Source: Verrucomicrobiia bacterium (lineage in GTDB: Bacteria; Verrucomicrobiota; Verrucomicrobiia; Verrucomicrobiales; Akkermansiaceae). From it: DNA of 64,000 bases. The translations under genes were made by a program, and so were the position numbers. The notes under the pieces are model-generated. The model had not been told where the DNA came from and searched no databases. It was given only the letters and a program-made list of their open reading frames with translations. How positions within the stretch are numbered: the stretch's first letter is position 1; the number at the start of each line of letters is the position of its first letter. Below are positions 16,553 through 64,000 of the stretch, one piece after another. Location of the stretch: NCBI GenBank assembly GCA_947462875.1, contig CANHQJ010000002.1:62001-126000 (forward strand), written 5' to 3'.

Positions 16553-16562
16553 AAGCGCTATG

Positions 16563-25605: not shown

Positions 25606-25617
25606 CAATTGATTGCC

Positions 25618-27032: not shown

Positions 27033-28397
27033 ATGAAACGCAGAACTTTTTTCCGCACCAGCACCGCCGCCCTCGCCAGCACAGCGCTTCCTCGTTTCGC
27101 GATCGGCAAGCCGGGCAAATCCGCGAACGGCAAGCTCAACGTCGCTTTCATCGGTTCGGGCGGCTGGATCGCGCGGCAGCCCTACGAGCAAGGATGCGGC
27201 GAGGAAAATCTTGTGGCGTTTTGCGATGTGGACACGGATCGCTGTGCGGAAAACATGAAGAACTGGCGCACCACGCAGCCGTTTTTCCAGGACTTCCGCG
27301 AGATGTTCGACAAGATGCACAAGGAGATCGATGCCGTGGTGATCTCCACGCCGGACCACACGCACTTCGCGGCCACGATGGCGGCGATGGAGCGCGGCAT
27401 TCATGTGTACACGCAGAAGCCGCTCACGCACAATGTCTGGCAAGCGCGCACTCTGGTGAGAGCGCAGCAAAAGTATCAGGTGGTCACGCAAATGGGAAAT
27501 CAGGGGCACGCGGGCGATGGCATCCGTCAATCGGTGGAGGCCTATCGCGCCGGAGTCATCGGTGACGTCAGCAAGGTCTATTGCCGCAATACGGGTCCGG
27601 AACTGGGTGGTCAGCATTTTGCCAATCCCGCCCGCATGCCGCTGCCCGCCATGCCCGTGCCCGCCGGTCTCAACTGGGACCTGTGGCTGGGGCCGGTGGC
27701 GAAACGCGACTATCATAGCGACTACCATCCGACAAAGTGGCGGACGTTTTACGACTTCGGTCTCGGCATGTTGGGCGACTGGGGCTGCCACACACTCGAC
27801 ACGCCTGTGTGGGCGCTCGATCTCGATCCGCCCACGCTGGTGGAATGCCTCGATCGCAAGGATTCGTTAGAGGGAGTCATCCCCGCGGGCAGTCACATCC
27901 GGTATCATTTTTCCGCCAATGCCAAACGCGGGCCGGTGGTTCTCGAGTGGTTCGATGGGCCGCAGGATTGGAGCAAGGCCGGACGCATCGACAAATTCGG
28001 CGCCGAGCACGCGGCGCACCTTGGTCGAGCGTGCTGGATGATCGGGGAAAAAGGCATGATCGGCTGTGGCACCCATGCGGGAGCGCCGCTGATTCTCCCC
28101 GAGGAGTTGCACAAAAACTGGCAAGCGAATCCGCCCGCGCAGGTCATCCCGCGCGTGGCGGGCGGTCCCTTCCGCGAATGGCTGCGTGCGATCAAAGGCG
28201 AGGGTCCGGAGCCGGGATCGAACTTCACCTACGGCGCGCGTCTCACGGAAATCATCCTGTTAGGCGTGCTGGCCCAGCGTTTCAAGACCAACATCGAATG
28301 GGATGCCAAAGCCGGACGCATCACCAACCGTCCCGAGCTCAATGCCTTCATCAAGGAACCCGTGCGCGAAGGCTGGAGCTACGGGGAAACGATCTAG
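27033..28397 (+). CDS. Exported Gfo/Idh/MocA family oxidoreductase
   Basis: This 454-residue NAD(P)-dependent sugar oxidoreductase has a Tat-like leader (KRRTFFRTSTAALASTALPRF), indicating export with its cofactor bound. The Rossmann domain starts at about 35 (VAFIGSGGW, then AFCDVD), and the conserved lysine is in TQKPLTHN. The C-terminal domain has LGMLGDWGCHTLDTPVWALDL, a signature of the family versions common in Verrucomicrobiota and Planctomycetota. It lies 17 bp after the preceding gene, so the three genes from 17.9 to 28.4 kb probably form one operon. The substrate is not identifiable; recently some exported members were found to act as glycosidases by redox chemistry, which would fit this context. 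Confidence 0.88.
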   Translation: MKRRTFFRTSTAALASTALPRFAIGKPGKSANGKLNVAFIGSGGWIARQPYEQGCGEENLVAFCDVDTDRCAENMKNWRTTQPFFQDFREMFDKMHKEIDAVVISTPDHTHFAATMAAMERGIHVYTQKPLTHNVWQARTLVRAQQKYQVVTQMGNQGHAGDGIRQSVEAYRAGVIGDVSKVYCRNTGPELGGQHFANPARMPLPAMPVPAGLNWDLWLGPVAKRDYHSDYHPTKWRTFYDFGLGMLGDWGCHTLDTPVWALDLDPPTLVECLDRKDSLEGVIPAGSHIRYHFSANAKRGPVVLEWFDGPQDWSKAGRIDKFGAEHAAHLGRACWMIGEKGMIGCGTHAGAPLILPEELHKNWQANPPAQVIPRVAGGPFREWLRAIKGEGPEPGSNFTYGARLTEIILLGVLAQRFKTNIEWDAKAGRITNRPELNAFIKEPVREGWSYGETI

Positions 28398-44712: not shown

Positions 44713-46515
44713 TCACCATTGCAGGGTGATCCCCGCAAACACCGCCGAGCCGGCGGCGGGGATGGGGGTGCCGCCGAAATCTGAGAGTAGGTACTCTTCA
44801 TCGGTCACATTCTCCCATCGCGCGTGCAGGCGGATGTTTTCCCTGAGCTGATAGTTGGCGTGGAACCGGCCGACGACATACGAGTCGATCGGCGAGCCAC
44901 CCCACGAGTGATCCGATAGGGAATTCAGTCCGACCCCGAGCTGGAGCTTGTCCGTAGCCTGCCAATCCAGCGCGGCGTTGACGTGGTGGCGCGGTTGATC
45001 GCTGAGGCTGCGTGGCAGGTAGGTCCAGGCGATGCGGTAGTGCCAGTCATCGCTGAGGAAACGTCCGTCCACGGCGCTCTCCAAGCCCTCGGTGTGCGTC
45101 TCACCGGGCAGGTTGACGGGCCCGGGCTTGGCGAAGGAATTGATGCGGTCCTCGATGTTGTTATGAAACACCGTGAGTTGCAGACGATGATGCGTGGCGA
45201 TCTTTTGTTCGACGCCGAAATCCCAGCCCACGGCGGATTCCGCTTTCAGGTCGGGATTGCCCGCGCCGAAAGCAGAACCGAAGAGGTCGAGAAAACTCGG
45301 CGCGCGAAACGAGGAGCCAAGGCCCGCCCGCACGATCGTGCCGGTGGCTTTCACCTCGTAGGCGCTGCCGATGCGCCAGGTGCTTTCTTCACCATAAGCG
45401 TCATAGTCTTCCCATCGCCACGCCGCGTAGTTTTTCCAATCGCTCAGCGTTTCCCACTCGATGCCGAGGTGGAAGCCGTAGCGGTCGCGCTCGGCGGCCG
45501 TGCCTATGGTGTTGCGATAGTCGCTGCGGTGCGCGAACACCCCACTTAACAGAATCAGGTTCTCGCGGATGCGCCACTCGTGATCGTTGATCACGTTGTA
45601 GGCCCGCATGTCGGTGCCGTAATTGCCAGGGCTGTAATTACTATCGTAAAATTCCTGGTGGAATCCTGCGATCAGGCTGGTCTTCCAATCCTCGTTGATC
45701 TGACCGTTCAGATAGAATGTCGCCAGCGATCCGTCGAGATAGTCATCGGACGAACCGAGATTGTTGAAGTAGGCATCGAAACCCCGATAGGTCACGCCCG
45801 CCTGCCACTGTTCACTGATCTTTTGCTCCAGGCGCAACGCCGCGCTGCCCTGATAGAAGTTCTGATTCGGAGCATCGTTTTCCGTTTCCTCATAGCCGGC
45901 GGAAAAGAAATACGCCAGATCGTTGGATTCCCCCTGATAGCGGATCGCGGTATTGAACGATTGAAACGAACCGGCTTCCGCGAAGAAGGTGCCCTGCGGT
46001 GCGCCTGTGCCGCGTGCCGTTTCCAGCCAGAGCACGCCGCCGATCGATTCGCCGCCGTAGGCCGCGCCTTGTGCGCCGCGCAGCACCTCGATGCGACCGA
46101 GATCCAGCACCCGCGCCGCGCCTAGCATGTTGCCAAGCTGCGTGGTGGAATCGCTGAGACGTATGCCATCCACCACGAGCTGCGAGTAGGCCGTATTCGT
46201 GCCGCGGATGAACACCGAGCCGAGGGCCCCCGTCTGGCCACCCGTGGAGGTGGCGATCACGCCGGGGGATTCGTTCAGGGCATCGCGCAGCTGCAACATG
46301 CCGCGTTTTTCCAGATCGCGCGGGTCGATCACGGTCACGGCGGAGGCGACATCGCTGGCCTCGCGCGGGGTCCGCAGTGCCGACACCACGATGGATTCCA
46401 ATTCGGTATCGATCTCCGCATGGGCGATGTTCGCCGCGAATAATCCCACCGTACTTCGTGCCACAACGGCACGCCAACTGAGCCTCCCGAGGGAGGTCGT
46501 ATTTTTTTGTTTCAT
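44713..46515 (-). CDS. btuB: TonB-dependent cobalamin receptor (BtuB-like)
   Basis: This outer-membrane receptor has 600 residues, close to the size of E. coli BtuB. A signal peptide (MKQKNTTSLGRLSWRAVVAR through NIAHA) is followed by a TonB box-like ELESIVVSALRTP. The plug domain contains LRDALNESPGVIATS and VFIRGTNTAYSQLVVDGI, and IEVLRGAQGAAYG closes it. The 22-strand barrel ends in a terminal tryptophan. The substrate call is supported by the cobalamin riboswitch just upstream. The ATG at 46515 is 15 bp after the riboswitch hairpin, so the longer frame from 46635 is unlikely. No btuCDF genes are in the window. Confidence 0.88.
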   Translation of the reverse strand: MKQKNTTSLGRLSWRAVVARSTVGLFAANIAHAEIDTELESIVVSALRTPREASDVASAVTVIDPRDLEKRGMLQLRDALNESPGVIATSTGGQTGALGSVFIRGTNTAYSQLVVDGIRLSDSTTQLGNMLGAARVLDLGRIEVLRGAQGAAYGGESIGGVLWLETARGTGAPQGTFFAEAGSFQSFNTAIRYQGESNDLAYFFSAGYEETENDAPNQNFYQGSAALRLEQKISEQWQAGVTYRGFDAYFNNLGSSDDYLDGSLATFYLNGQINEDWKTSLIAGFHQEFYDSNYSPGNYGTDMRAYNVINDHEWRIRENLILLSGVFAHRSDYRNTIGTAAERDRYGFHLGIEWETLSDWKNYAAWRWEDYDAYGEESTWRIGSAYEVKATGTIVRAGLGSSFRAPSFLDLFGSAFGAGNPDLKAESAVGWDFGVEQKIATHHRLQLTVFHNNIEDRINSFAKPGPVNLPGETHTEGLESAVDGRFLSDDWHYRIAWTYLPRSLSDQPRHHVNAALDWQATDKLQLGVGLNSLSDHSWGGSPIDSYVVGRFHANYQLRENIRLHARWENVTDEEYLLSDFGGTPIPAAGSAVFAGITLQW

Positions 46516-46529
46516 CTTGTCTGTTGGTT

Positions 46530-46548
46530 GACCTGAACTCCGCAGGTC
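46530..46548 (-). promoter_or_regulatory. Hairpin between the cobalamin aptamer and btuB
   Basis: Read on the minus strand, GACCTG and CAGGTC form a perfect 6-bp stem with loop CGGAGTT. Its 3' end lies 15 bases before the btuB start. This position suits an expression platform that hides the ribosome site when cobalamin binds. A transcription terminator is less likely as no U-run follows. Confidence 0.5.
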
Positions 46549-46554
46549 ATTCGA

Positions 46555-46690
46555 ACGCATGACAAGGCTGGCGATCTGACTTTTTCCGATTGTTGCCAAA
46601 CGAAAATCACAGTGGCGGTACCGCGCCGGAATCACACCGGCTTCCCCAACAATTTCCTGCCCCGTCCAAGGGCTTCCCTGTCATGTCGGT
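46555..46690 (-). ncRNA. Cobalamin riboswitch
   Basis: On the minus strand the conserved core is plain. GCCGGTG...CCGGC (46641-46625) is followed by GCCACTGTGA, whose B12 box GCCACTG lies at 46616-46610. GTCAG lies at 46580-46576. A closing P1 stem can be drawn between ATGACAGGG (46684-46676) and CCTTGTCAT (46567-46559). The element fits Rfam-type cobalamin aptamers in sequence and order. It lies 40 bp upstream of btuB and probably shuts down expression when B12 is plentiful. The exact 5' boundary is uncertain and could extend further. Confidence 0.9.
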
Positions 46691-49284: not shown

Positions 49285-50727
49285 ATGATAAAAACACCAA
49301 TGCGTTCTGATAGTCGATTTGCTTTCATTGCAGTCACCTCCTTGTTTTTTATGTGGGGATTTATCTCCTGCATGAATGATCTGTTGATTCCCAAATTCAA
49401 GGCGGACTTCCACTTGACTCAGTTTCAGGCCAATCTCGTGCAATTTGCCTTTTTCGGAGCCTACTTTATTGTTTCGCTAGCTTATTTTCTGATTTCCGCA
49501 GCCAAAGGTGATCCGATTAACAAGATTGGTTACAAGAACGGTCTCGTGCTTGGTCTTCTCATCGCGGGCATCGGCTGTCTTCTCTTTTATCCAGCGGCTG
49601 AAACCAAGCAGTATGCCTTGTTTCTCGGAGCGCTGATCATACTTGGTTCGGGTATCACGATCATACAGATTGCCGCCAACCCTTACGTCACCATTCTTGG
49701 CCCAGAGGAAACCGCGCCATCACGACTGAACCTCTCGCAAGGTCTCAATTCCCTTGGCTATGTGATCACGCCACTCATCGGCGGTGTCCTGCTCTTCGGT
49801 TCGAAGGACCTGTACACCAGCGCCGGTGGCGTTGATGCGGTCAAAGTTCCGTATGTCGGTCTTGGCATCGCTTTCCTCTTGCTCGCCCTGATTTTTAAAT
49901 TGATATCGCTACCGAGCTTTCGACAGGAAGGTAGAGTCGAATCTGGTGTCAACGTCTTCCGCCATAAACATTTCGTTTGGGGTTGGTTGGCGATTTTTTT
50001 CTATGTCGGTAGTGAGGTGACTGTAGGCAGCATTCTAATAAATTACCTCCAAGACCCCAGTGTGATGGGCATGCCGGAGGAGGCTTCTGCTAAATATCTT
50101 TCCTTTTATTGGGGCGGTACGATGATCGGACGCCTGATGGGAGCTATCTCGCTCAGCAGCATCCGACAGTCTAGAAAATACCTATTCATGATACTCTCCG
50201 CCATCGGCGCTACTGGCGTGATTTTTGCCAACGCGACCTTTAAGGAAAACCTCACTAATGGTCATTTTATTGATCCCGCGGCGATTCTTCCCTATGTCGG
50301 CATGGTGCTGATGAGCTTTGCCTTCTTCGCTCTCGGTCGATCAAATCCCGGAAAAATGGTGGGACTTTTTGCTCTGGTAGCGATGGCGCTCACCGCATTT
50401 TCGATGGGATCGACAGGTGAGTTTGCCCTCTGGTCGATTATTGGAATCGGCTTGTTTAACTCCATCATGTGGTCGAATATTTTCAGTCTCTCGATTCGAG
50501 GTCTCGGCAAGGATACCAGTCAAGGGAGTTCGCTGTTGGTCATGATGATCGTCGGCGGTGCGATCATGCCCTTGATACAGGGCGCGCTGATGGACTCTCT
50601 GGGTGTACGAGCCTCGCTCTCTATCGTCTTGATCGGTTATGCCTACTTGGTATTTTTTGGTTTCTACGGTGCCAAAGCGGACGCACTCACCAGTGATATG
50701 GCCAGAGTGCCCAATGACGGTAAGTAA
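49285..50727 (+). CDS. FucP/GluP-type MFS sugar transporter
   Basis: This inner-membrane sugar:H+ symporter has 480 residues and 12 predicted spans. It has the fucose/glucose-galactose permease signature: FFMWGFISCMNDLLIPKFK near the start, AYFLISAAKGDPINKIGYKNG, and IQIAANPYVTILG. Together with the neighbouring GH92 mannosidase and ROK kinase, mannose or a mannose-containing sugar is the likely substrate; this is inferred. The start at 49285 was preferred over 49183 because the longer leader lacks family similarity. GC content is lower than in the housekeeping region. Confidence 0.88.
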   Translation: MIKTPMRSDSRFAFIAVTSLFFMWGFISCMNDLLIPKFKADFHLTQFQANLVQFAFFGAYFIVSLAYFLISAAKGDPINKIGYKNGLVLGLLIAGIGCLLFYPAAETKQYALFLGALIILGSGITIIQIAANPYVTILGPEETAPSRLNLSQGLNSLGYVITPLIGGVLLFGSKDLYTSAGGVDAVKVPYVGLGIAFLLLALIFKLISLPSFRQEGRVESGVNVFRHKHFVWGWLAIFFYVGSEVTVGSILINYLQDPSVMGMPEEASAKYLSFYWGGTMIGRLMGAISLSSIRQSRKYLFMILSAIGATGVIFANATFKENLTNGHFIDPAAILPYVGMVLMSFAFFALGRSNPGKMVGLFALVAMALTAFSMGSTGEFALWSIIGIGLFNSIMWSNIFSLSIRGLGKDTSQGSSLLVMMIVGGAIMPLIQGALMDSLGVRASLSIVLIGYAYLVFFGFYGAKADALTSDMARVPNDGK

Positions 50728-50738
50728 CGCAAAAGCAT

Positions 50739-51845
50739 ATGGATATCTTCTGTGATTCCAGAGTGGTGATGACGCTCGATGCCGGCGGCACCAACCTCCG
50801 CTTCGTTGCGATCCGTGGTGGCAAGCCTATCACGGATACGATTTTCTTGCCCTCCCACGGGTCCGACTTAAACCAGTGCCTTGCCACGATCATCGAGGGC
50901 TTCCAACGCGTGAAAACACTGTGCCCACAGCCTCCCTCTGCCATCAGTTTTGCGTTTCCTGGTCCGGCTGACTATCCTAACGGAATCATAGGCGATTTGG
51001 GCAATCTTCCCGGTTTTCGTGGGGGAGTCGCCCTTGGGCCCATGCTGGAAGACTCTTTCCACATCCCGACTTTTATCAACAACGATGGTGATCTTTTTAC
51101 CTATGGTGAGGCGATTGGGGGATTCTTGCCTCACATCAACCAATTACTGGAAAACGCGGGCAGCCCGAAACGATACAAAAATCTTTTCGGCATTACGCTC
51201 GGCACAGGTCTCGGTGGCGGTATTGTCCATGATGGACAGTTGTTCACGGGGGATCATTCGATGGCAGGTGAAGTCTGGTTGCTACGCAATAAATTCTATC
51301 CCCAAATGAACGCCGAGGAAAGTAGCTGCATTCGCGCCGTATGCCGAGTTTATGCGGATATTGCTGAAATTCCAATCGAGAATGCTCCGGAACCCAAAGA
51401 CATTTATGAAATCGCTCATGGTCGGCAAACGGGAAACCACAAGGCCGCAATCGATGCTTTCCTTCGTCTCGGCGAATCGGTAGGTGACGTGCTCTGCAGC
51501 GCTTTGACATTGATCGACGGGCTCGCCGTGATCGGTGGTGGAATCTCGGGGGCCTGGACGCTTTTTCTCCCGAGGCTCGTTGAAGAACTCAACAGCACCT
51601 TCACGAGTCCCGATGGAAACAAATTCCGGCGACTCACTTCCGCTGCCTTCAATCTGGAAGATCCCACCAAGTTGGATACCTTTCTCCAAGGGGAAAACCG
51701 CGTTATCCAGGTGCCTGGTAGCTGTCGCAGTCTGGCCTATGATCCACTTCATCGCATTGGCGTAGGCATTTCCCGTCTGGGAACCACCGAGGCGGTCGCA
51801 ATTGGGGCCTACGCCTTCGCACTGCACAAACTCGGTCCCGCGTAG
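50739..51845 (+). CDS. ROK family sugar kinase
   Basis: This 368-residue cytosolic kinase starts 11 bp after the transporter gene. The phosphate-binding motif is LDAGGTNLRFV (13-23); FPGPADYPNGIIGDLGNLPG and GTGLGGGIVHDGQL follow, with the catalytic Asp probably in NNDGD. The classical ROK zinc motif (CxCGxxGCxE) is absent: the equivalent segment reads AGEVWLLRNKFYP. Thus it belongs to a divergent ROK group. Coupling to a sugar transporter and GH92 suggests it phosphorylates mannose or a related hexose. Confidence 0.85.
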   Translation: MDIFCDSRVVMTLDAGGTNLRFVAIRGGKPITDTIFLPSHGSDLNQCLATIIEGFQRVKTLCPQPPSAISFAFPGPADYPNGIIGDLGNLPGFRGGVALGPMLEDSFHIPTFINNDGDLFTYGEAIGGFLPHINQLLENAGSPKRYKNLFGITLGTGLGGGIVHDGQLFTGDHSMAGEVWLLRNKFYPQMNAEESSCIRAVCRVYADIAEIPIENAPEPKDIYEIAHGRQTGNHKAAIDAFLRLGESVGDVLCSALTLIDGLAVIGGGISGAWTLFLPRLVEELNSTFTSPDGNKFRRLTSAAFNLEDPTKLDTFLQGENRVIQVPGSCRSLAYDPLHRIGVGISRLGTTEAVAIGAYAFALHKLGPA

Positions 51846-52029
51846 TCAAGATTACACTTTTTTAATTCTATCGTTAGATACTATTCTTTTTTCTCATCTC
51901 ATGTTCATCGTGAATAATCTACCGCTGCTGATTGCATTACCTTTATGCCAAAGCAAGAAGGCGATGCTCAGATCCCAAGTGGTTCGTTCGATGCTGGACA
52001 CATCGGGCTGAGATTGATAACACTTGGAA

Positions 52030-53390
52030 ATGAATCAAACATTCAGAATTTTGCTCCTGCTATTCTCAGTCATGGTAGTAGTAGCAGATGGGTCGAAAAA
52101 AACGAACCTATGTATTATATACGCTGATGACCTGGGTTACGGGGATGTGTCCACCTATCATGCGTCGGATGCAAGAACTCCGAACATCGATCAACTGGCT
52201 TCCGAAGGAATGACTTTCACTGCGATGCGGTCGAACTGCACGGTGTGCTCTCCGTCGCGCGCAGCTCTTCTCACAGGTTTTTATGCGGATCGTGTGGGTG
52301 TTCCTCGAGTGATTCGCACGAATACCGATGACACGTGGGGTTATTTCTAGCCGGACGTTCCCACGCTTGCCGACGAACTCAGAGAGGCTGGCTATCACAC
52401 CGCGTTGATCGGGAAGTGGCATCTCGGGCTTGAGTCGCCGAACATTCCCAACGAGCGAGGATTTGATGATTTTCATGGGTTTCTGGATGATATGATGGAC
52501 AGCTACACCACTCATCTGCACGGTGGAATCAATTTCATACGGCACAACTCCGAGGTTATCGAGCCGAAGGGTCACGCGACAGACATCTTCACTGACTGGG
52601 CCTGTGATTACCTTCGTCGGCAAGCCACGGCAGCGAAACCGTTTTTTCTCTATCTCGCCTGCAATGCGCCTCATTTTCCGATTGAGCCACCGGCAGACTT
52701 TCTTCAAAAGGTCAAAAGCCGCCTGCCGACACTCGATGAAAAACGTGCGCAAAACGTCGCATTCGTAGAGCACCTTGATGATCGGATTGGCAAGGTGCTT
52801 GCCGCACTGGGGGAAGCAGGATTGGAGAAAATACCATGGTGGTTTTTACCTCTGATAATGGCGGCTCACTCGCTCATACCCAAAGCAATGATCCCTGGCG
52901 TGGGGGAAAACAGGACCACTACGACGGCGGTTTGCGCGTGCCTTTCGTCGCGCGATGGCCGGGTCGAATCCAGCCAGGCTCACTGAGTGACTATCAGGGA
53001 TTAAACTTCGATCTCTTTCCAACATTTCTTGTAATTGCCGGAGTCACTCCCTCTCCCACATTGGACGCGGTCAGCCTGCTTCCTGTCTTCGATGGTGCTA
53101 CGCTCAGCAAGCCGCGTGATCTTTACTTTGTTCGTCGCGAGGGCGGTCTCGGCTACGGCGGGAAAAGCTGCGAAGCTATCATCAGCGACGGATGGAAACT
53201 GATGCAGAATGATCCTTTTAGCAGTATGGAATTGTATCATCTGACAAGCGATCCGTTAGAAAAAGAGAACCTTGTGAAAAGCAATCCCAGCATGGCAGCT
53301 CAGCTAGCAAAGCGGCTGCGCGCTCAGATTCAAATCGGAGGAGCCACACCTTGGCGAAAAGCTTCGCCTGAGCTGAAAAAAATGCGCTAG
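52030..53390 (+). pseudogene. Sulfatase, interrupted by a stop codon and a frameshift
   Basis: The three pieces join into one arylsulfatase (S1 family). Residues after the signal peptide read YADDLGYGDVSTY, then CTVCSPSRAALLTG with the formylglycine cysteine in C-x-P-S-R, then GKWHLGL, and SDNGGS further on. An in-frame TAG at 52348-52350 breaks the first piece just before PDVPTLADEL. In the poly-A run at 52828-52831 one base seems missing: the reading GAG AAA AAT ACC ATG would restore the VVFTSDNGG frame. Two independent lesions make a true pseudogene more likely than sequencing error, although the A-run defect alone could be technical. It probably once desulfated a sugar in the mannoside locus. 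Confidence 0.85.
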
Positions 53391-53435
53391 CACCTAGGTG
53401 AGGATATGACGGGATTATAAATCCCTGATCCGAGC

Positions 53436-53457
53436 GTGTCATCACTTTGAGGACTAT
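53436..53457 (+). promoter_or_regulatory. Shared upstream element, copy 2 (beta-repeat protein gene)
   Basis: GTGTCATCACTTTGAGGACT lies about 128 bp before the start at 53584, nearly the same distance as copy 1. It shares CTTTGAGGACTAT with copy 3 upstream of the GH92 gene. Confidence 0.55.
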
Positions 53458-53583
53458 GCTCTTTTTGGCTCAGCTGTCATGGTCGTCTTGATGAATCGAA
53501 ACGTATGGTTTCGAAACCCAATACTCGGCGTCTGATCGCCACTATTACTTCGTCAACCCAACATCGTAAGCCAAAAACCGACC

Positions 53584-56500
53584 ATGAAACGCAAAAGCTC
53601 GCATTCACTCTTCGTCGCTGCCATGACCCTGGCGGGAATTGTCTTCTCGGCAAGCTCTGCTTCCGCTGCCGCGCTGATTTGGGACATCACACCGGGTGAC
53701 GGCGCGAGCATCACAGCTGGAAGCGGTAGTTGGAATCTCACTGCTGGGAATACGGTTTGGAACAACGCCGGCACGAACGCGATTTGGGGCCATACCTCAA
53801 CTACCGACGGGAGCAACACCGCTACCTTTGCCGGCGCGGACGGCACACTCAACCAGTATGTGGTCACGCTTGGGGCGCAAATGGCTGCCGAATCGATCAC
53901 TTTCAACAGCAGCGGATACCAAATCACTGGTAGCACGCTGGCCTTGATGCCGACGACCACCACAAGCGGCCCCATCACCGTGGCCGCCGGCAAGACTGCC
54001 ACCATCAACTCCATACTCCGCTACGCCCACAACACCGCTGCGTCGGTGGTGGTCGGTTCTGGTGGCGTTTTGAATCTCGGCGGCGGTACTACTGCGGCCA
54101 ACAATCCGCAGTTCGCCTTCACCGGTGCGGGCACAGTCAATATCACGGCGGGCACATACGCATCCAACATCGGTAGCATCGGCAATGCCACCTTCAACCA
54201 GACGGGCGGCACTTACAATATCACGCCTGGAAACGGAGCTGGTTTCAACATCACCAGCACCACCCAAAACGTCGCCTACAACCTTTCCGCCGGCACCTTA
54301 AGTGTGAACGGCAACGCCACGACGGCTAACGGTGTAAGCAACGCCCACTTAGGTATCGGAAACGGAACCAGCACCTTCACATCCACCTTGGCTGTGAGTG
54401 GTGCCGGCATCATGAACGTTGGCACTACTGCCGGCACTTACGGCGAAATTCGCGTCGGAAATGCCATAGCATCCAACGGCACGTTCCAAGTGACGGGTGG
54501 CACGGTCACCGTGGGAACTGGCGCCGTCGGCAATAAGATTTACTTCTTCAAGAACGGATCCAGCGCGGGCTTCACCGCCAGCATGACCCAGTCCGCTGGC
54601 ACGGTGACGACGAACGGCATCCAGTTCGGTAGTTCCACAGGCACCTACGATGCTGGTTCAGCGGCGAACTTGACTCTCAGCGGCGGCAGTCTGTATGTCG
54701 GCGATCGAGGTATCATTCGCGGCAGTGGCACTGCAGCGGAGTCCCTCCCAGTCACCATCAAGCTCCAAGGAGGCACGCTCGGTGCCGATCAGAATTGGAG
54801 CTCCTCGATGGACATGAAACTTGGCGCTGCGACCATTCGGGCACAGGACGCCGCCAGCAACAGTCGCAATATCAGCCTCTCGGGCGTTCTCTCCGATGAT
54901 AGCACGGCGGGAACTCTTACCAAGACGGGTAGCGGTATTCTAACGATCTCCGGCGCAAACAGCTACACGGGTGCGACCACCATCAACGAAGGCACCTTAG
55001 CGTTGGGCGCGAGCAATGTCTTACCGAACGCATCAGCCGTATCTGTGGGAGGCGCTGCTCTCGATGCAGTAACATTTACGGATACCACCGGCACTTTGGA
55101 TGTCACTGGAAGCGCTACCATCAACCTCGGCCTCGGCGCCACACTCGCCTTCGCTGATAGCAGTTCCGTCGATTGGGTTGGAGGCACTTTGACCGTTACG
55201 GGAACCTTTGTTCCTGGTTCGTCCCTGCGTTTCGGCACGACCAATGGCGGATTGACAGCAAGCCAACTCGCTAGCATTTCCATAAGCGGCTATTCCAATT
55301 TCATTTTGGATGAACTGGGTTACCTTACCGTGGGTGATAGCACGCCACCGATCTTGACCAGCATTGTCGACAACAAGAGTGCTGGACCAATCGCAGCCGA
55401 TACCACAGTGACCTATACCGTGACTTTCAATGAGCCCATGAATGTCGCCACGGTCAACGCCGAGGACTTCGATAACGCGGGCACTGCCGGTTATTCGATT
55501 GGTGCGATTGCATCGGTGTCTTCGACTGTTTTCACGGTGCAGGTCACCAACACCACACCGGGCAGTCTTATTCTTCAAATTCCCGCAACGGCCACCATTA
55601 CGGATGCCGTGGGCAATGCGCTTGCTCGTGTGCCCGCTCCGGTCGATGACACCACCATCACTGTGAATTCTTCTCCTGCGCCCGTTCTCCTTGTGAGCAA
55701 TATGGTCGATGACAAGGCGGGGCAGCCTGTCGCTCCTGGCATGGTAGTGACGTATACCCTGACTTTCAGTGAGGACATGGATGCCTTAACATTGGGCGCG
55801 GAGGATTTGAGCAATGCCGGTACAGCCCTTGTGGATATGGGAGCCATTACCGAAATCAGTCCCGGAGTGTTCACCGTGCAAGTTACGCCGATTGGCACTG
55901 GCACACTGCGATTGATGGTCAACGCGGATGCGGAAATTCGGGCGGCTTCCTCGGGTAATGTATTAAACACGAGTGTTGCCATTCAAGATGCTGACACGAT
56001 CACAGTGGGAAATTATCTCTTCTGGGACACAGTGGCAGCAGATGGTTTTGTTTTCACTCCTGGCAGTGGAAACTGGGATTTGCTCTCCCAAAATGCCGTC
56101 TGGAACAATGTTACCTCTAACGTTTCTTGGTCCCAGTCCGGCACGACGGACGGCAGCAACGCCGCCATCTTTGCTGGGGTGGACGGCGCGCTCAACCAGT
56201 ATGTGATCACACTCGGTGCGCAAATGGCCACTGAATCGATTACCTTTCATAGCAGTGGTTACCAAATCACCGGTAGCACGCTGGCGCTCATGCCGACGAC
56301 GAGCACGAACGGTTCGATCACCGTCGCAGCGGCTAAGTCCGCTACGATTAACTCCGCCATCGCATATGCAAACAACAAAGTGGCCAATATAACCGCGAAC
56401 TTGGGCGCTACGCTCAGCCTCGGCGGTGGCGCGAGCAATTCGCAATACCAATTCCTAGGAGCTGGCACCATCAACTTGACCGGCGGCACATACACAGCCA

Positions 56501-59500
56501 ATGTGGGCAAGATGAATGCTGCGACATTCAATCAGAGTGGCGGCACCTTCAACATGAATCTGCCTACCGTCGGCGACGGGCATTATATTGGCTATGATGC
56601 CGGCCGCAGCGTGAGCTTCACCCTGGACGGCAATGCTATTATCAATGCTAACGCATCCGTCGATGCCAGTGTCAATTCATTCTTAGCAATCGGTCGCGCT
56701 GCGGGTAGCGCGGCCTTTACGAACTCATTGAATGTGCAGGGCAATGCCAATTTGAACATTGGCAACGCGGCCAACAGGGCCGGTGAGCTCCTGATTGCCT
56801 TTGATACGATATCGAACGGCACGCTGAATGTGTCGAGTGGCGCGGTTACCGTTGGAACCGGCAAAACTTCCAACCAGATTTACTTTTTCAAGGCTGGTTC
56901 CGGCTCTGGCTATGCTGCTGCAATGACGCAATCTGGCGGCACGGTCATCACCAACGGTATCCAGTTTGGTGGCACTGCGGGCACTTACAACCTGGCATCT
57001 GCCGCTAGCCTGACTCTCGGCGGCGGTAATCTGTATGTCGGTGCGGCTGGTATCACGCGAGGCTCCGCGGCCTCAGATCTGCCCATCAGTATCAAGCTTC
57101 AAGGCGGCATCCTCGGTGCCAATCAAAACTGGATTTCTGGTCTCGATATGAGGTTGGGTGCGGCTACCGTCCGAGCGCAGGACGCGGCTACCACGGCTCG
57201 CAACATCACTCTTTCGGGTGTGCTTTCCGACGACAGTGGCGCGGGAAGTCTTACCAAAACAGGAACGGGTGTGCTGACGCTGTCTGGTGTGAGTGCCAAT
57301 ACCTACACCGGCGCGACAATCGTTAACGCTGGCACCTTGAATCTCGGCAAAGTGAATGCAGTAAGCAGCTCCAGCTCTCTTACCATCGCCAATGGAGCTG
57401 CCTTGGCACTCAGCACGAGTTCCGCTAGCGTTCCTAGTCTTACATTTCAAGGCACAGGCACGCTGAGTTTCAATGTGGCAGACGGTCACGTCCTCACGGT
57501 TGATCAAACCGATGGCGTCACCAACAGTGGCGCGGCTGGTTCCGTGACGATCAACATCAGTGGCAGCGCGCCCGCGAGCGGCACCTATTCGTTGATTGAT
57601 TACACCGGCTCCCTGCAAGGCACTGGCTTCAGTGCCTACGCTCTCGGCAGTGTGCCCGCCGGAAAGAGTTACGCGCTTGCCAATGATACCGTAAACGGCG
57701 CCATACAGCTTGTTGTGACGAGTAACTACACCTGGACGGGCGCTACCGGTAGCGAGTGGAGTACTGCCACGATCGCTGGCTCCAAGAACTGGACCAAAGA
57801 CGGCAGTGCCATTGATTATATGAATGATCTTGGTGTGATCTTCGATAGCACTGCAATCAGCTACATCGTGGATATTTCCGGTGCTGACGTGACACCTCTG
57901 TCGGTTGCTTTTAACAGCGGCACTTATACTCTTCAGGGCACTCATACCATCGCGGGCTCTGGTGCAGTCACAATCCATTCGGGAGCCACCCTCAAACTCG
58001 GATCTTCTGATAAATTGCCCAATGGTGTTGGCGCTGGCAATGTCGCGCTGAACGGCACTCTTGATCTCAACGGTTTTTCGGATACGATCAACGCGTTGAC
58101 CGGTTCAGGCATTGTCGATAACACGGCATCGGCTACCACATCCACCTTGACGATCGGTGCCAATGCTGGCGGAAATTTTGCCGGTTCACTCACGAATACG
58201 ATAGGCACACTGGCGCTGACCAAAATAGGCAATACGGATGTCACTCTGAGTGGAAGCAATACTTACGGTGGAGCCACCACCATCAGTCAAGGTCGACTCT
58301 TCATCGGCGCAGCCAGTGCATTTTCCCCCAACACGGCGGTGGTAGTCAGCAATGGCGCGTCTCTGGTTTTGAATGCTGGTAGCTCACCTGCATTTGCCCG
58401 AAGTATCGCGCTTACGTCCGGATCTAATGTATCGATGCGTCAAACTGCCACTATAAGCAATGTGACACTTCCCTCATCCGGAAACGTCAAGTTCAACTTC
58501 GACGAAGCGGCCACTCAAGCGTTTAGCATCACCACTGCCCAAGCGCTAGCCGGTAGTCTTGATGTCCAAGTCGGCGGTAGCAATGCCTCGGTGGGTAACG
58601 TCACGCTCAATGCCATCATCAGTGGCAGTGAGGGAAGTTTGATCAAGTCGGGACCAGGTCGGTTGATCATACGTGGAGCGAATACGTACGGCGGTGGAGT
58701 CGCGATCAAGAATGGAACCTTGGAAAGTCAGAACACGACCACAACATTGGGCTCCGGCACGGTCACTCTGGGTGGAACTGGTTCGACAGGGGCCACTTTT
58801 CTCACCGGACAAAACAATGCGAATCCATTTGTGATCAATGCTCCCGACAGCGGTAACCTTGTCATTGGCACAAATGGTGGCGGTTCCGTGTTCACGATGT
58901 CTGGCGGAATCACCTTGAATGGAAATCTGACCCTGCAGACCTTTGAGAATGTTGTCAGCGGATCGACAGTAGCCCGGACGATTGTCTCTGGCAATGTGGC
59001 TGGGACTGGCAATTTGTTGCTGAATAATCTGGGACTCGCAGCCAACACCATCTCGTTAAGTGGTAGCAGTGTGAATCATGCGGGAAGCATCACCTTGCAA
59101 GGCACAGCGAGCGGCAACGTCACCATCAGTGCGGCTATTGGTTCGAATGTGACCGCTATCACGCAAAACAGTGCGACCTCGCCACTCGTTCTCAGCGGCG
59201 CGAACACTTACCAAGGCAATCTTGTCGTCAACGCCGGCATCGTTCGAATTTCGAATGCTCCTGATCCGCTCAACGCCAACACCGGTAATGATGCCTCTAC
59301 GGTCACCATCGCTGAGACGGGTGCGACGCTAGATCTCACCTACACAGGCACCGACAAAGTGGACAAACTGGTCATCGGTAGCACTCAGCAAGCGAACGGC
59401 GTGTATGGAAAAGTAGGCTCAGCCTCACCAGTCATTGGCATCCCTCAAATCACAGGGGACGGCACCTTGACAGTTGGAACCGTAACCCCCAGCGGCTTCT

Positions 59501-59862
59501 CTTCGTGGATCACCGGCACATTCGCCAATGGCACGGTTTCGTTAGAGCGACAAGGTCCCAATGACGACTTCGACAAGGACGGTATCAGCAACTTGTTGGA
59601 ATACGCCATTGCCGGTCAGGATCCCACTGTCAGCAATACCTCGATCAGCAGCTTCAGCGCGAATACCATCTCTTTCACCAAGCGCGAGGGGACGAGCGGT
59701 ATCAGTTACGATATCGAAATCTCCACGCTGCTGACCGCCGAGTCGTGGACCACGCTAGCCAAGCCTCCGGTGGTGGAAAGCCCAAGTGTAATTTCCTACA
59801 CCTTCACTCCTGGCACACCAGAGAAACAGTTCGCACGCCTGAAGGTGACGCAAGCACCTTAA
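53584..59862 (+). CDS. Giant autotransporter-associated beta-strand-repeat surface protein
   Basis: This 2092-residue exported protein has signal peptide MKRKSSHSLFVAAMTLAGIVFSASSASA. The N-terminal module (about 30-490) is repeated with clear similarity at about 815-1250. Shared blocks include LNQYVVTLGAQMAAESITF, GYQITGSTLALMPTT and NITLSGVLSDDS (ISL in the first copy). Between the copies lie two SbsA-type Ig-like domains (about 580-810; VTYTVTFNEPM and VTYTLTFSEDM). Many beta-strand repeats follow (LTKTGTGVLTLSGVSANTYTG; LSGSNTYGGATTISQG). The end has a calcium-binding-like DDFDKDGISNLLEYA and the tail EKQFARLKVTQAP. No enzyme domain or barrel was found. It may anchor or capture polysaccharide at the surface; this is inferred from its neighbours. 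Confidence 0.82.
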   Translation: MKRKSSHSLFVAAMTLAGIVFSASSASAAALIWDITPGDGASITAGSGSWNLTAGNTVWNNAGTNAIWGHTSTTDGSNTATFAGADGTLNQYVVTLGAQMAAESITFNSSGYQITGSTLALMPTTTTSGPITVAAGKTATINSILRYAHNTAASVVVGSGGVLNLGGGTTAANNPQFAFTGAGTVNITAGTYASNIGSIGNATFNQTGGTYNITPGNGAGFNITSTTQNVAYNLSAGTLSVNGNATTANGVSNAHLGIGNGTSTFTSTLAVSGAGIMNVGTTAGTYGEIRVGNAIASNGTFQVTGGTVTVGTGAVGNKIYFFKNGSSAGFTASMTQSAGTVTTNGIQFGSSTGTYDAGSAANLTLSGGSLYVGDRGIIRGSGTAAESLPVTIKLQGGTLGADQNWSSSMDMKLGAATIRAQDAASNSRNISLSGVLSDDSTAGTLTKTGSGILTISGANSYTGATTINEGTLALGASNVLPNASAVSVGGAALDAVTFTDTTGTLDVTGSATINLGLGATLAFADSSSVDWVGGTLTVTGTFVPGSSLRFGTTNGGLTASQLASISISGYSNFILDELGYLTVGDSTPPILTSIVDNKSAGPIAADTTVTYTVTFNEPMNVATVNAEDFDNAGTAGYSIGAIASVSSTVFTVQVTNTTPGSLILQIPATATITDAVGNALARVPAPVDDTTITVNSSPAPVLLVSNMVDDKAGQPVAPGMVVTYTLTFSEDMDALTLGAEDLSNAGTALVDMGAITEISPGVFTVQVTPIGTGTLRLMVNADAEIRAASSGNVLNTSVAIQDADTITVGNYLFWDTVAADGFVFTPGSGNWDLLSQNAVWNNVTSNVSWSQSGTTDGSNAAIFAGVDGALNQYVITLGAQMATESITFHSSGYQITGSTLALMPTTSTNGSITVAAAKSATINSAIAYANNKVANITANLGATLSLGGGASNSQYQFLGAGTINLTGGTYTANVGKMNAATFNQSGGTFNMNLPTVGDGHYIGYDAGRSVSFTLDGNAIINANASVDASVNSFLAIGRAAGSAAFTNSLNVQGNANLNIGNAANRAGELLIAFDTISNGTLNVSSGAVTVGTGKTSNQIYFFKAGSGSGYAAAMTQSGGTVITNGIQFGGTAGTYNLASAASLTLGGGNLYVGAAGITRGSAASDLPISIKLQGGILGANQNWISGLDMRLGAATVRAQDAATTARNITLSGVLSDDSGAGSLTKTGTGVLTLSGVSANTYTGATIVNAGTLNLGKVNAVSSSSSLTIANGAALALSTSSASVPSLTFQGTGTLSFNVADGHVLTVDQTDGVTNSGAAGSVTINISGSAPASGTYSLIDYTGSLQGTGFSAYALGSVPAGKSYALANDTVNGAIQLVVTSNYTWTGATGSEWSTATIAGSKNWTKDGSAIDYMNDLGVIFDSTAISYIVDISGADVTPLSVAFNSGTYTLQGTHTIAGSGAVTIHSGATLKLGSSDKLPNGVGAGNVALNGTLDLNGFSDTINALTGSGIVDNTASATTSTLTIGANAGGNFAGSLTNTIGTLALTKIGNTDVTLSGSNTYGGATTISQGRLFIGAASAFSPNTAVVVSNGASLVLNAGSSPAFARSIALTSGSNVSMRQTATISNVTLPSSGNVKFNFDEAATQAFSITTAQALAGSLDVQVGGSNASVGNVTLNAIISGSEGSLIKSGPGRLIIRGANTYGGGVAIKNGTLESQNTTTTLGSGTVTLGGTGSTGATFLTGQNNANPFVINAPDSGNLVIGTNGGGSVFTMSGGITLNGNLTLQTFENVVSGSTVARTIVSGNVAGTGNLLLNNLGLAANTISLSGSSVNHAGSITLQGTASGNVTISAAIGSNVTAITQNSATSPLVLSGANTYQGNLVVNAGIVRISNAPDPLNANTGNDASTVTIAETGATLDLTYTGTDKVDKLVIGSTQQANGVYGKVGSASPVIGIPQITGDGTLTVGTVTPSGFSSWITGTFANGTVSLERQGPNDDFDKDGISNLLEYAIAGQDPTVSNTSISSFSANTISFTKREGTSGISYDIEISTLLTAESWTTLAKPPVVESPSVISYTFTPGTPEKQFARLKVTQAP

Positions 59863-60012
59863 TAATAATCTGATTATTACTAGCGTATCGTTTTTTACTT
59901 AGTAATTGATAGGGATTGATCATCTTTATCTAAGCAACAATACGATCTAACGAATCGCTTTGAGATCTCCGGAACACGTTGATTTTCCTGATCTTTTTCA
60001 GAAAGTTCAACG
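59863..60012. other. Structured AT-rich spacer with two hairpins
   Basis: TAATAAT-CTG-ATTATTA (59863-59879) directly follows the stop of the beta-repeat gene. A second stem lies at 59977-60012, with outer arms CGTTGA/TCAACG and inner arms TTTCCTGA/TCAGAAA that have one bulge. The first may help to end transcription; the second could be a leader or terminator structure. No gene is seen in this stretch. Confidence 0.4.
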
Positions 60013-60063
60013 TTGTTCGCAACACGAGAGTGATGCCGCGATCATGGAATTGGCCTTGCCCAT

Positions 60064-60083
60064 GTAGTCACTTTGAGGACTAT
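60064..60083 (+). promoter_or_regulatory. Shared upstream element, copy 3 (GH92 gene)
   Basis: GTAGTCACTTTGAGGACTAT lies about 80 bp before the chosen GH92 start. The 13 bases CTTTGAGGACTAT are identical with copy 2. Confidence 0.55.
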
Positions 60084-60163
60084 CACGCTGGGAATTTTTC
60101 GATTTGAATGGAAGCGTCTCTGCTACCCCAGAAGCAGGGGAAAACCGTAAGAAAAGAATCACC

Positions 60164-62467
60164 GTGTTGCCTCAACTATTACTTATCAAACGAAAACTTA
60201 GTATTACAGCCAGTATTCTTCTGGTTGCTGGATTACCACCTGTTTACGCCATGCCCGAAGAGGGTAGTGTAGGGAAATATGTCGATCCTTTTATCGGTAC
60301 CGGCTTTCATGGACATACGTTTCCCGGAGCGACCACTCCGTTTGGGATGGTGCAACTCAGCCCGGACACCCGCACCTCTGGTTGGGATGCATGCGGCGGT
60401 TACTATGATGCTGACAAGGAGATATGGGGCTTCAGTCACACTCACCTCAGTGGCACGGGTATCGGCGATTACGGCGATGTGCTCGTGATGCCGTTCACGG
60501 GGAAGATGGGCATCGGTTCAGGAACTCCGAATCGACCCGATTACAGCTATCGCTCCGCCTACGATAAGAAAAACCAGGTAGCAAGTCCTGGATACTACAG
60601 CGTGTTACTGGACCGTTATCAAGTGAAAGTGGAACTCTCCGCGACGCCAAGAGTGGGCATGCACCGCTACACCTTTCCGCAGTGCGAAGAAGCGGGCATC
60701 GTGATTGACTTGAAACACAGTCTACAAAATCGTCAAACGCTGGAAGCATCGATTGAAGTTGTCAACGACCATGAAATTCGTGGATGGAGGCATGTCAAGG
60801 GATGGGCCCCCAACCGACGCATTCATTTTCACGCTGTGTTTTCCAAGCCATTCGTGGCGGAGTTGTATTCGGATGATGCCTTGCTGACGGGCGTGCGTGC
60901 CAACGGCAAGCAGATCAAAGCGAAGCTAAAATTTGCCACGAGCCAGAATGAGCAGGTGCTGCTAAAGGTGGGTATCAGTGCGGTGGACATGAATGGAGCC
61001 AAGGGGAATCTGATGACAGAAATCACCGACTGGGATTTCGATCGCATCGTAGAGACTGCTAGATCCCAATGGGAGAAACAACTCCGTAGCATCCGAGTAT
61101 CTGGCGGTAGCGAGGACCAGCGCAGGATTTTTTATACCGCGCTCTATCACAGCTCCATTTCGCCCAACATCGCGAGTGATGTCGATGGGCGCTACCGTGG
61201 AATGAATCAAAAAATTCATCAGGATTCCACTTACACCAATCACACGGTCTTTTCGTTGTGGGATACCTTTCGCGCCCAGCACCCGCTCTACACCATTATT
61301 GATCCGGAGCGTGACCAACAGTGGATTCGGTCGCTGCTGCGAAAATACGATGAGGGTGGCATCCTGCCGATGTGGGATCTCGCCTCAAATTATACTGGAT
61401 GCATGATTGGGTATCATGCGGTTCCTGTGATCGTGGATGCTTACACGAAGGGCTTGCGCGACTTCGATGTCAAAAAAGCCATGGATGCGGTGGTGTTTTC
61501 CTCGATATACGACGATCAAAAGCCCATTCCCTATCACACCGAGGATGTCAAAAGAGATCTGATGCCGAAGGCCAAACTGTACAATGCCACAGAGCGCTTC
61601 ATACCCGCAGACCAAGAACTTAAGTCGGTATCCAAAGCCCTGGAATTTGCCTACAATGACTGGGCCATCGCGACCATGGCCAAGGGCGTGGGGCGCGAGG
61701 ACATCGCCATGGAATACCACACACGAGCCAAGCGCTACCGCGAGTATTTCGACAAAGAAACCGGTTTCATGCGCGGCAAGAAACGGGATGGCACATGGGT
61801 GACACCTTTCACGCCCACCGACTCCAACCACAACTTGGGCGAATACACCGAGGGCAACGCCTGGCAATGGACTTGGTTCGCTCCTCACGACGTGCCTGGT
61901 CTGATCGAACTCTTTGGTGGCAAGGATTCATTTGCCAAAAAACTCAACGAGCTTTTCACCACAGACTCCACTCTTACGGGCGAAGAGATATCTGGAGACA
62001 TTACCGGACTCATCGGACAATACGCGCACGGCAACGAGCCGAGTCATCACATCGCCTACCTCTTTAACTGGGTCGAGCAACCTTGGCGCACGCAGGAGAT
62101 CGTCCAAAAGATCATGACCGATTTCTACAAGGCGACTCCAGGAGGGATCATCGGTAATGAAGACTGTGGACAGATGTCGGCTTGGTTCATTCTCAGCTCC
62201 ATGGGCCTCTACCAAGTAGCCCCGGGTGATCCGCGGTTTTCTCTGGGCGCCCCTCTTTTTACTGAGGCACGCATCCCTCTCAAGAGTGGTAAAACTTTCG
62301 TGGTGAAGAAGAAAAATGAAGCAAAGCATCATCTCTATGTCCAGAAAGTCACACTGAATGGCAAACCATTGACAGTTCCCTTCATCGACTACGCAGAGAT
62401 CATGTCCGGCGCAGAACTAATCTTCGAAATGGGCGCTCAAAAAACGGTCTTCTGGAAACAGCCATAA
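60164..62467 (+). CDS. GH92 alpha-mannosidase
   Basis: This exported calcium-dependent exo-alpha-mannosidase has 767 residues. The signal peptide runs from VLPQLLLIKRKLSITASILL to PPVYA. N-terminal landmarks are VDPFIGTGFHGHTFPGAT and PFGMVQLSPDTR. The catalytic part has GNEPSHHIAYLF, GGIIGNEDCGQMSAWFI and LGAPLFTEARI, all family signatures. GH92 enzymes remove alpha-linked mannose from glycans and mannans. The GTG at 60164 is chosen since the signal peptide begins there; a TTG at 60104 is possible. The gene carries the shared upstream element, tying it to the transporter and surface protein. Confidence 0.92.
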   Translation: MLPQLLLIKRKLSITASILLVAGLPPVYAMPEEGSVGKYVDPFIGTGFHGHTFPGATTPFGMVQLSPDTRTSGWDACGGYYDADKEIWGFSHTHLSGTGIGDYGDVLVMPFTGKMGIGSGTPNRPDYSYRSAYDKKNQVASPGYYSVLLDRYQVKVELSATPRVGMHRYTFPQCEEAGIVIDLKHSLQNRQTLEASIEVVNDHEIRGWRHVKGWAPNRRIHFHAVFSKPFVAELYSDDALLTGVRANGKQIKAKLKFATSQNEQVLLKVGISAVDMNGAKGNLMTEITDWDFDRIVETARSQWEKQLRSIRVSGGSEDQRRIFYTALYHSSISPNIASDVDGRYRGMNQKIHQDSTYTNHTVFSLWDTFRAQHPLYTIIDPERDQQWIRSLLRKYDEGGILPMWDLASNYTGCMIGYHAVPVIVDAYTKGLRDFDVKKAMDAVVFSSIYDDQKPIPYHTEDVKRDLMPKAKLYNATERFIPADQELKSVSKALEFAYNDWAIATMAKGVGREDIAMEYHTRAKRYREYFDKETGFMRGKKRDGTWVTPFTPTDSNHNLGEYTEGNAWQWTWFAPHDVPGLIELFGGKDSFAKKLNELFTTDSTLTGEEISGDITGLIGQYAHGNEPSHHIAYLFNWVEQPWRTQEIVQKIMTDFYKATPGGIIGNEDCGQMSAWFILSSMGLYQVAPGDPRFSLGAPLFTEARIPLKSGKTFVVKKKNEAKHHLYVQKVTLNGKPLTVPFIDYAEIMSGAELIFEMGAQKTVFWKQP

Positions 62468-62568
62468 ACCATATATAAAGTTGATTGGTAATAATGTTAC
62501 GAACAATATAGATTCTCGAATGCAGGAATTAACCTATTTTTATAGTTTTGTTCTTTGCCTCCATTCTA

Positions 62569-64000
62569 ATGAAAGCCCGATCCACTTATCACCGCGGTAG
62601 AAGTCATCATCTCATCGCCAGCAATCCTGGGTTTACCCTGGTCGTGACGATATCGCTGTTGGTTTTATTGACGGTCATCGCACTAGGAATGCTTTCCCTC
62701 ACCTCTGTTAGCCTTCGCAGCGGTTCGATGTTCGCGGCGCAGAAAAAAGCGCAGGCCAATGCACGCATGGCGCTTGTCTTCGCGTTGGGCGAACTGCAGA
62801 GCGAACTGGGGCCAGATCAGCGCGTCTCGGCGTCCGGTGGTCAGCGACTCGAGGACGGCGACAAGTCTGGTGGAAATCACTGGACAGGCGTATACGATTC
62901 ATGGCGGGCGAGCGACGAAAATAGGCCAGAGCCCGTTTTCAGACGGTGGTTGATTTCTGGTGCGCCTGAAGTGGTCGTCGATCCTAATGCTCCGAAAGAA
63001 GCCGCATCAGGAGTAAAAAAAATCACACTCGTGGCGTCCGATGCCGAACACAATGCGGTGGATGCAGAAATCACGGATCTGCCCGCGGGAGGCATCGCCT
63101 GGTGGGTAGGGGATGAGAATATGAAAGCCAAAATGGGCGGAGTTGTGGAGTCGACTGCCGATGTCACAGTGGCGCGCGCGCGCATGCAGGCCGCGCCGCG
63201 TGCGGGGCACGAGGTGTTTTTTGGCAACATGGTGGCAGCGGATGATCCGATCATGGATCGGTTGTGTTCGGGGAAGACCATCGATCTGGTGGGAAAACCC
63301 GAGAAGGCGATTTTTCATGATGCGACCAGCTTCTCGTTAGGCTTGTTGACCAACGTTCGCGGCGGCGGACTTCGTAAGGATTTGAATTTTCTTCTTGAAG
63401 CTCCCCAACCGAATCCCAACACACCTGAGGTGGCTCCGCTCTATTCGGTTGGCACTACACCGGGCATCAACCTAGGAGAACTATGGGTCGATCATAACAT
63501 CTGGGCGGAGATCGTTTATCCTTCGAATCCACCCCGACACGCTGATGGTAGCACGATTCCGTCCGGCATGCCCATTTTGGTATGCACTGACATCAAAAGT
63601 GATCCGTTCCTCTTATACAAGCACCTGCCCCGCTTGCAGTTGACGCTTCTTTACTCACTGATCAGTAAAAGCAGGATGGTCGGAAATGTGAAGCAATATG
63701 ATCTGTTTCTGGTGGCTGACCCCGTCTTTACTATTTGGAATCCGTTTGATGTCACACTGCACGTCCCCGCATCTGCTTTTGCTACGTTCAAAAGCTGGGC
63801 CATTCCCTATGACTTGAATCTCAGACTAGAAAATGGCCCTCTTGGGAGTAAAACGGCATTTACCCGCTCGATCAAACAACTCTCTAACAATCGGCTCTTC
63901 TTTTTTTATGGCCAACTCGGACGAGGACAGAGCTTGGTGATGCGTCCGGGAGAGGTGCAGGTCATCGCTCAGGGATTCGGCGAAAAAATCAAAGAAGTTC
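62569..64000 (+). CDS. Verru_Chthon cassette protein A-like, prepilin-type leader (partial)
   Basis: Start ATG 62569; open for 477 codons to the window edge with no stop. The N-terminus has a prepilin-like leader with NPGFTLVVTISLLVLLTVIALGML and then AQKKAQANARMALVFALGELQ, the hallmark of the PilX-like A protein of the Verru_Chthon cassette. The middle contains WWVGDENMKAKMGG and DPVFTIWNPFDVTLHVP. The function of the cassette is unknown; pseudopilin-like export is assumed from the leader. The partner genes (B, C, D) would lie outside the window. It is 101 bp downstream of the GH92 gene. Confidence 0.82.
   Translation, partial: MKARSTYHRGRSHHLIASNPGFTLVVTISLLVLLTVIALGMLSLTSVSLRSGSMFAAQKKAQANARMALVFALGELQSELGPDQRVSASGGQRLEDGDKSGGNHWTGVYDSWRASDENRPEPVFRRWLISGAPEVVVDPNAPKEAASGVKKITLVASDAEHNAVDAEITDLPAGGIAWWVGDENMKAKMGGVVESTADVTVARARMQAAPRAGHEVFFGNMVAADDPIMDRLCSGKTIDLVGKPEKAIFHDATSFSLGLLTNVRGGGLRKDLNFLLEAPQPNPNTPEVAPLYSVGTTPGINLGELWVDHNIWAEIVYPSNPPRHADGSTIPSGMPILVCTDIKSDPFLLYKHLPRLQLTLLYSLISKSRMVGNVKQYDLFLVADPVFTIWNPFDVTLHVPASAFATFKSWAIPYDLNLRLENGPLGSKTAFTRSIKQLSNNRLFFFYGQLGRGQSLVMRPGEVQVIAQGFGEKIKEV

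Follow-up and report, generated by a model that had tools for sequence, protein, structure and literature searches.

The literature treats as open how polysaccharides and giant proteins get across the outer membrane of Verrucomicrobiota, and metagenome-assembled genomes (MAGs) of the phylum that lack SusCD have already been published (Orellana et al. 2021, PMC8857213). The stretch analyzed here—hereafter the window—comprises 64,000 nt from a Verrucomicrobiia bacterium of the Akkermansiaceae (GenBank assembly GCA_947462875.1, contig CANHQJ010000002.1; G000:C2:62001-126000 in our numbering), whose genome assembly amounts to 3.95 Mb on 39 contigs. It encodes sugar-related genes around a 2092-residue protein built of PATR repeats (TIGR02601), and the first-pass annotation had proposed such giants as the surface capture part of sugar uptake, standing in for SusC/SusD. 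Is this what the giant does? The reading we favor, and hold to be reasonably probable, is that an alpha-mannoside cluster lies here beside a surface- or matrix-associated PATR fiber, with a C-terminal domain (CTD) serving as sorting tail. The phylum-wide CTD is the more informative finding; the mannoside cluster itself is ordinary.

A C-terminal domain on giants and other exported proteins

One C-terminal domain, missed in the first-pass annotation, is common to all three giants of the window:

3343..11616, minus strand: subtilase-type exported giant of 2757 aa, without PATR repeats, CTD at its end (domain search and hidden Markov model, HMM)
3343..3729, minus strand: CTD of the subtilase giant (leave-one-out E 5e-15)
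17902..25605, plus strand: giant G2, with PATR repeats, Big_3_5, a SASA esterase domain and a terminal CTD (domain search and CTD HMM)
25195..25605, plus strand: CTD of G2 (leave-one-out E 3.9e-30)
53584..59862, plus strand: giant exported PATR protein G3, 2092 aa (PATR/TIGR02601, signal-peptide-like N-terminus)
59500..59862, plus strand: CTD of G3 (leave-one-out HMM E 7.6e-11, alignment)

The CTD spans ~120 residues, an Asp-rich loop being followed by a predicted immunoglobulin (Ig)-like sandwich. The ends of the giants align along W...D.D.DG..N..EY..G..P, then F.R......E.S..L..W and a terminal F.RL.V. Leave-one-out profiles, each built from the remaining 19 of 20 seeds, recovered 20/20 seeds with E-values from 2e-6 to 1e-31, always at the C-terminus. 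Genome-wide, the profile returned 51 matches; in the loci examined, the domain ended ≤10 residues from the C-terminus in 37 of 43 matches and was single-copy in 42 of 43. Signal-like N-termini, called by a rough hydropathy rule, were present in 27 of 34 CTD proteins versus 109 of 275 background proteins. The carriers are unrelated to each other—PATR fibers, subtilase, sulfatase, CAP, cyclophilin, BNR, pectate-lyase-like and sorbosone dehydrogenase-like (GSDH) proteins—with ~20 unrelated exported proteins standing beside the PATR proteins in a class of ~40.

No Pfam family covers the CTD in 18 members. TSP3_bac (PF18884), whose Asp-rich DxDxDG loop resembles the opening of the CTD, touches the loop in 2/18 (best E 0.012), but it describes a short stretch only and leaves the sandwich behind the loop outside its description. 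Likewise, no NCBIfam model matches the C-termini of the window's three giants, and the PDB holds no significant sequence match to the CTD. AlphaFold models built from seven to nine sequences leave the first part of the domain unresolved; its final 75-95 residues form a beta-sandwich, with block pLDDT values mostly of 60-88. Structure comparison of two models (Foldseek and VIA) returned generic Ig-like matches, none with E < 0.001 or Z ≥ 6, including a weak, non-significant likeness to CBM21 folds.

The domain was found in 200 of 289 Verrucomicrobiota genomes, being scarce or absent in several groups with small genomes, with 45 matches in Pelagicoccus and at least 149 in Pontiella sulfatireligans, the highest count here. 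A profile search of outgroup genomes (3 Planctomycetota, 8 Bacteroidota, 4 Vibrionaceae) gave 0 matches.

The closest precedent is the PEP-CTERM/EpsH exosortase system, in which a C-terminal region recurs on many unrelated exported proteins, in many copies per genome, and which was first noted in Verrucomicrobium (Haft et al. 2006, PMC1569441). The CTD behaves alike, and PATR proteins use either tail: among the 24 PATR proteins of the genome with a visible end (of ~25 in all), 18 end in the CTD (one of them read across two loci), two in PEP-CTERM, four in neither and none in both. In a relative's locus, L082, one of two neighboring G3-like proteins has the CTD as its end and the other PEP-CTERM, and the downstream giant of locus L083 carries a PEP-CTERM end. 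This exchange between related PATR proteins is the best argument for the CTD as a tail, and suggests a sorting or anchoring role. The two tails are nonetheless different: the CTD is a ~120-aa predicted beta-sandwich without PEP motif, transmembrane helix or basic tail, and PEP-CTERM features were not found at the CTD ends of G1-G3. Moreover, PEP-CTERM has its exosortase, of which the genome encodes one, whereas the CTD is without a known partner enzyme.

The cargo of the type 9 secretion system (T9SS) likewise consists of diverse exported proteins with an Ig-like sandwich at the C-terminus, a resemblance to the CTD that raises T9SS as its route. No T9SS CTD family matches the domain, however, and the translocon component SprA was found neither in this genome nor in Pelagicoccus or Pontiella, while three Flavobacteriia controls were positive. 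We therefore reject T9SS as an unlikely route.

The probable mannoside cluster and its relatives

The sugar genes named by the first-pass annotation—transporter, ROK kinase, broken sulfatase, the 2092-residue PATR protein and GH92—are all present on a single strand; the gene that follows them had been overlooked. Besides G3, they comprise:

49285..50727 (ATG at 49285), plus strand: major facilitator superfamily (MFS) sugar:H+ symporter of the GluP/FucP/NagP type (NCBIfam gluP TIGR01272)
50739..51845, plus strand: ROK-family sugar kinase (PF00480)
52030..53390, plus strand: sulfatase pseudogene (CSPSR motif kept, TAG and frameshift)
60104..62467, plus strand: exported glycoside hydrolase (GH) 92 exo-alpha-mannosidase (PF07971, PF17678, TIGR01180)
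62548..64000, plus strand, running past the window end (L035:549-3932): Verru_Chthon-A/GspK-like large pseudopilin-type protein (weak N-terminal TIGR02600/NF037980 matches)

The transporter scored 276.9 bits against gluP (cut-off 202.55) and 207.8 bits against the FucP equivalog model, below its cut-off of 280.4. The ROK gene, whose nearest solved structure is the glucokinase 3mcp, starts 11 bp 3' of the transporter, and the two probably form one operon; a promoter and terminator scan gave signals at chance level only. The sulfatase is a true remnant that keeps its N-terminal CSPSR motif and is broken twice, by an in-frame TAG (52348-52350) and by a frameshift near 52825-52850. A reassignment of TAG to sense was rejected, since none of the other sulfatases of the genome (61 in all) has an internal stop and the remnant carries the frameshift too. 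GH92 matches PF07971 with E 6e-177 as well as PF17678 and TIGR01180, with the N-terminal and catalytic domains above cut-off; its PDB relatives are alpha-1,2-mannosidases and its closest named relatives come from Akkermansiaceae MAGs. Judged from these families, symporter, kinase and exported GH92 would fit the use of mannosides as substrate. The cluster resembles the polysaccharide-utilization-like clusters described for Verrucomicrobiota in that GH, sulfatase and symporter genes lie together and SusCD is lacking, but those encode GH29 fucosidases (PMC8857213), whereas here GH92 and a GluP-type symporter lie alongside a PATR giant.

G3 itself contains five PATR/TIGR02601 stretches above the curated cut-off, as does G2, and an internal duplication (residues 31-515 versus 812-1296, 55% identical). 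Domain searches found no known carbohydrate-binding domain in it.

The pairing of GH92 with a PATR giant is real locally and conserved among close relatives. Akkermansiaceae-level contigs (L081-L084, not four independent cases, as L082 and L084 are near-identical) encode a GH92 82-84% identical to that of the window, with PATR proteins, mostly G3-like, 3-316 bp after it. Gene order differs, the giant preceding GH92 in the window and following it in the relatives. Further afield in the PVC group, Rubripirellula obstinata (L094) and Pelagicoccus mobilis (L096) have FucP and ROK homologues together with GH92, and Lacunisphaera-type contigs (L086, L087) have FucP with GH92; a G3-like giant is present in none of them. 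The catabolic core can therefore do without the giant.

L082 and L083 share the same pseudopilin-like gene next in line, after which L083 has a ~226-aa protein and a CTD-tailed sulfatase in common with the window genome; this sulfatase is thus kept downstream of the GH92/giant locus in both (L035:4703-8917, L083:15088-17124). The pseudopilin-like proteins have ~1130-1200 aa and a GspK/Verru_Chthon-A-like prepilin N-terminus (window 62548 on, L035:549-3932, L083:10116-13550); against TIGR02600, the window protein reached ~20 of the 332 bits required, over the first ~60 positions only. A Verru_Chthon cassette as general partner of the giants was rejected: the genome has 10 A-like loci, one of them near a giant, and the association is therefore a local feature. 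The papers searched contain no mention of Verru_Chthon, nor of the autotransporter-associated beta strand jointly with Verrucomicrobia.

Giants, sugar genes and the outer membrane

The first-pass annotation had given weight to the missing SusC/SusD pair. SusD (PF07980) was found in 0 of 40 genomes of the family, this one included, with a positive Bacteroides control; its absence from the locus is hence uninformative. Neither is there a SusC-type TonB transporter in the cluster. Eight plug domains occur in the genome, the nearest in a receptor 2.6 kb upstream of the sugar locus, so that the statement that no TonB receptor lies nearby does not hold. Its BtuB-like sequence and the adenosylcobalamin (AdoCbl) riboswitch ahead of it make it look like a vitamin B12 receptor rather than a sugar one:

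44713..46635, minus strand: BtuB-like TonB receptor, outside the sugar locus (TIGR01779 E 9e-47, below cut-off; plug domain)
46561..46661, minus strand: AdoCbl-II riboswitch of the BtuB-like gene (Rfam RF01689, 41.5 bits)

Other, freshwater Verrucomicrobia have been reported with TonB-based carbohydrate loci (PMC5615132). In the present genome, a TonB-dependent receptor (L048:395-2512) and a 3066-aa PATR giant (L048:2787-11987) stand back to back, the sole such pair seen.

A second grouping around G2 had been taken as an independent instance of the same logic:

15482..16654, minus strand: GntR/LacI-type regulator (domain search)
25609..27015, plus strand: DUF3863/DUF3864 protein (domain search, PDB 3lm3)
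27033..28397, plus strand: GFO/IDH/MocA oxidoreductase (domain search)

Regulator, SASA-bearing giant and oxidoreductase are indeed there; the supposed deacetylase/glycosidase is a DUF3863/DUF3864 protein akin to the uncharacterized PDB entry 3lm3 and is not recognizable as either enzyme.

Do giants accompany sugar genes genome-wide? Sulfatases (n = 61) numbered 3, 6, 8 and 14 within 3, 5, 10 and 15 kb of giants, versus 1.9, 3.1, 6.0 and 8.9 expected from circular shifts (the sizes of some contigs being interpolated), which is not significant in this one genome (P = 0.31, 0.10, 0.27 and 0.10, respectively). The first-pass annotation had named the lack of a statistical association across genomes as what would refute it; run inside this genome, the test gave 6 sulfatases against 3.1 within 5 kb (P = 0.10). 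Neighbor statistics drew on selected stretches of the genome, with simple open-reading-frame picking and Pfam tallies that run to 25 families (12 of 37 control families lie outside them). Counting the two nearest genes per side of 20 giant units (~64 genes) against 38 control genes, GH or sulfatase neighbors numbered 5/~64 versus 0/38 (P = 0.15, among the matches listed): GH92, GH106 and three sulfatases, the remnant included. Further neighbors were MurJ, MraW, AdoHcyase, RNase-type, EF-Tu-type and P450 genes. The proposed logic finds support in the pairing of GH92 with PATR giants both here and on contigs L081-L084; a significant genome-wide association was not found, and surface capture by giants as a rule of the lineage is possible but unsupported.

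Two observations concern the giants' surroundings. The GH106 rhamnosidase-type gene beside a PATR giant (L045:2824-5979; G000:C10 ~124823-127978) is, like the sulfatase of the window, interrupted by an in-frame TAG (~L045:3538); either it is a pseudogene or the assembly is at fault, in all probability. The stretch G000:C5:1-49124 (L040-L042) consists of 49 kb of giants only, with four tandem PATR giants of 3600-4240 aa and a fragment at the contig start.

What the giants and their tail may do

In the reading we favor, the exported GH92 would trim mannose from glycans, the GluP/FucP-type symporter would import the released sugar across the inner membrane and the ROK kinase would phosphorylate it, with the neighboring sulfatase decaying. 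G3 would most likely be a non-autotransporter, adhesin-like fiber attached to surface or matrix, not a SusCD substitute. Its CTD, recognized during or after export, would direct the protein to the surface of the cell or to its matrix, standing in for the PEP-CTERM/exosortase tail; we infer a surface location for CTD proteins at large. Several points weigh against this. No export machinery is tied to the CTD, the models of its structure reach a mean pLDDT of just 62-64 and are thus mediocre, four PATR proteins carry neither tail, and the domain could instead bind ligands or act as a cap. The adjacency of GH92 and giant is retained in close relatives, which a purely incidental neighbor would not need, and a looser count finds sugar-related neighbors enriched (8/64 versus 0/38, P = 0.02, among the matches listed), albeit only when a phosphomannose isomerase and two hydrolases of the BD-FAE type are also counted, categories picked once the data had been seen. 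A functional link of the giants to glycan use is therefore possible.

That PATR giants capture polysaccharides at the surface in place of SusC/SusD would account for GH92 adjoining them in the window and L081-L084, for the SASA esterase within G2, and for giants flanked elsewhere by two sulfatases (L044) or by the GH106 gene (L045); a family without SusD also needs some other outer-membrane route, which the literature calls open (PMC8857213). Yet neither the clustering of sulfatases nor the strict neighbor count is significant, the catabolic core occurs elsewhere without a giant, G3 has no binding module that we found, no channel protein is co-encoded, and proteases and other non-sugar proteins carry the same tail, so that we regard capture as improbable. 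The CTD might alternatively be a module that binds glycan or matrix and so tethers proteins to the exopolysaccharide of the cell itself, as its predicted Ig-like sandwich behind a TSP3-like, calcium-binding-type loop and the faint CBM21 resemblance would allow. Such modules usually occur anywhere in a protein and often in several copies, though, whereas nearly every carrier has just one CTD, placed at its end, and the domain exchanges with PEP-CTERM and finds only generic fold matches; we deem this rather unlikely. PATR repeats invite a comparison with type Va autotransporters, but with the ends being CTD or PEP-CTERM instead of a C-terminal beta-barrel, this is extremely improbable for the giants; for G2 and G3, where no barrel family was found and the CTD forms the end, we reject it.

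The locus, then, does not answer the outer-membrane question by giant capture proteins. As for the sorting tail we favor, we tentatively consider a broader possibility: the CTD may be the address label of an unrecognized export or surface-attachment route of Verrucomicrobiota, Kiritimatiellales included, comparable to the T9SS CTD though served by other machinery, and borne in each genome by tens to >100 proteins, which would include the PATR giants and secreted sulfatases. Widespread, exchanging with PEP-CTERM and matched by no Pfam, NCBIfam or PDB model, the CTD offers a concrete handle: it marks a candidate surface proteome across much of the phylum, and phylogenetic profiling based on its distribution offers a way to search for the export machinery.

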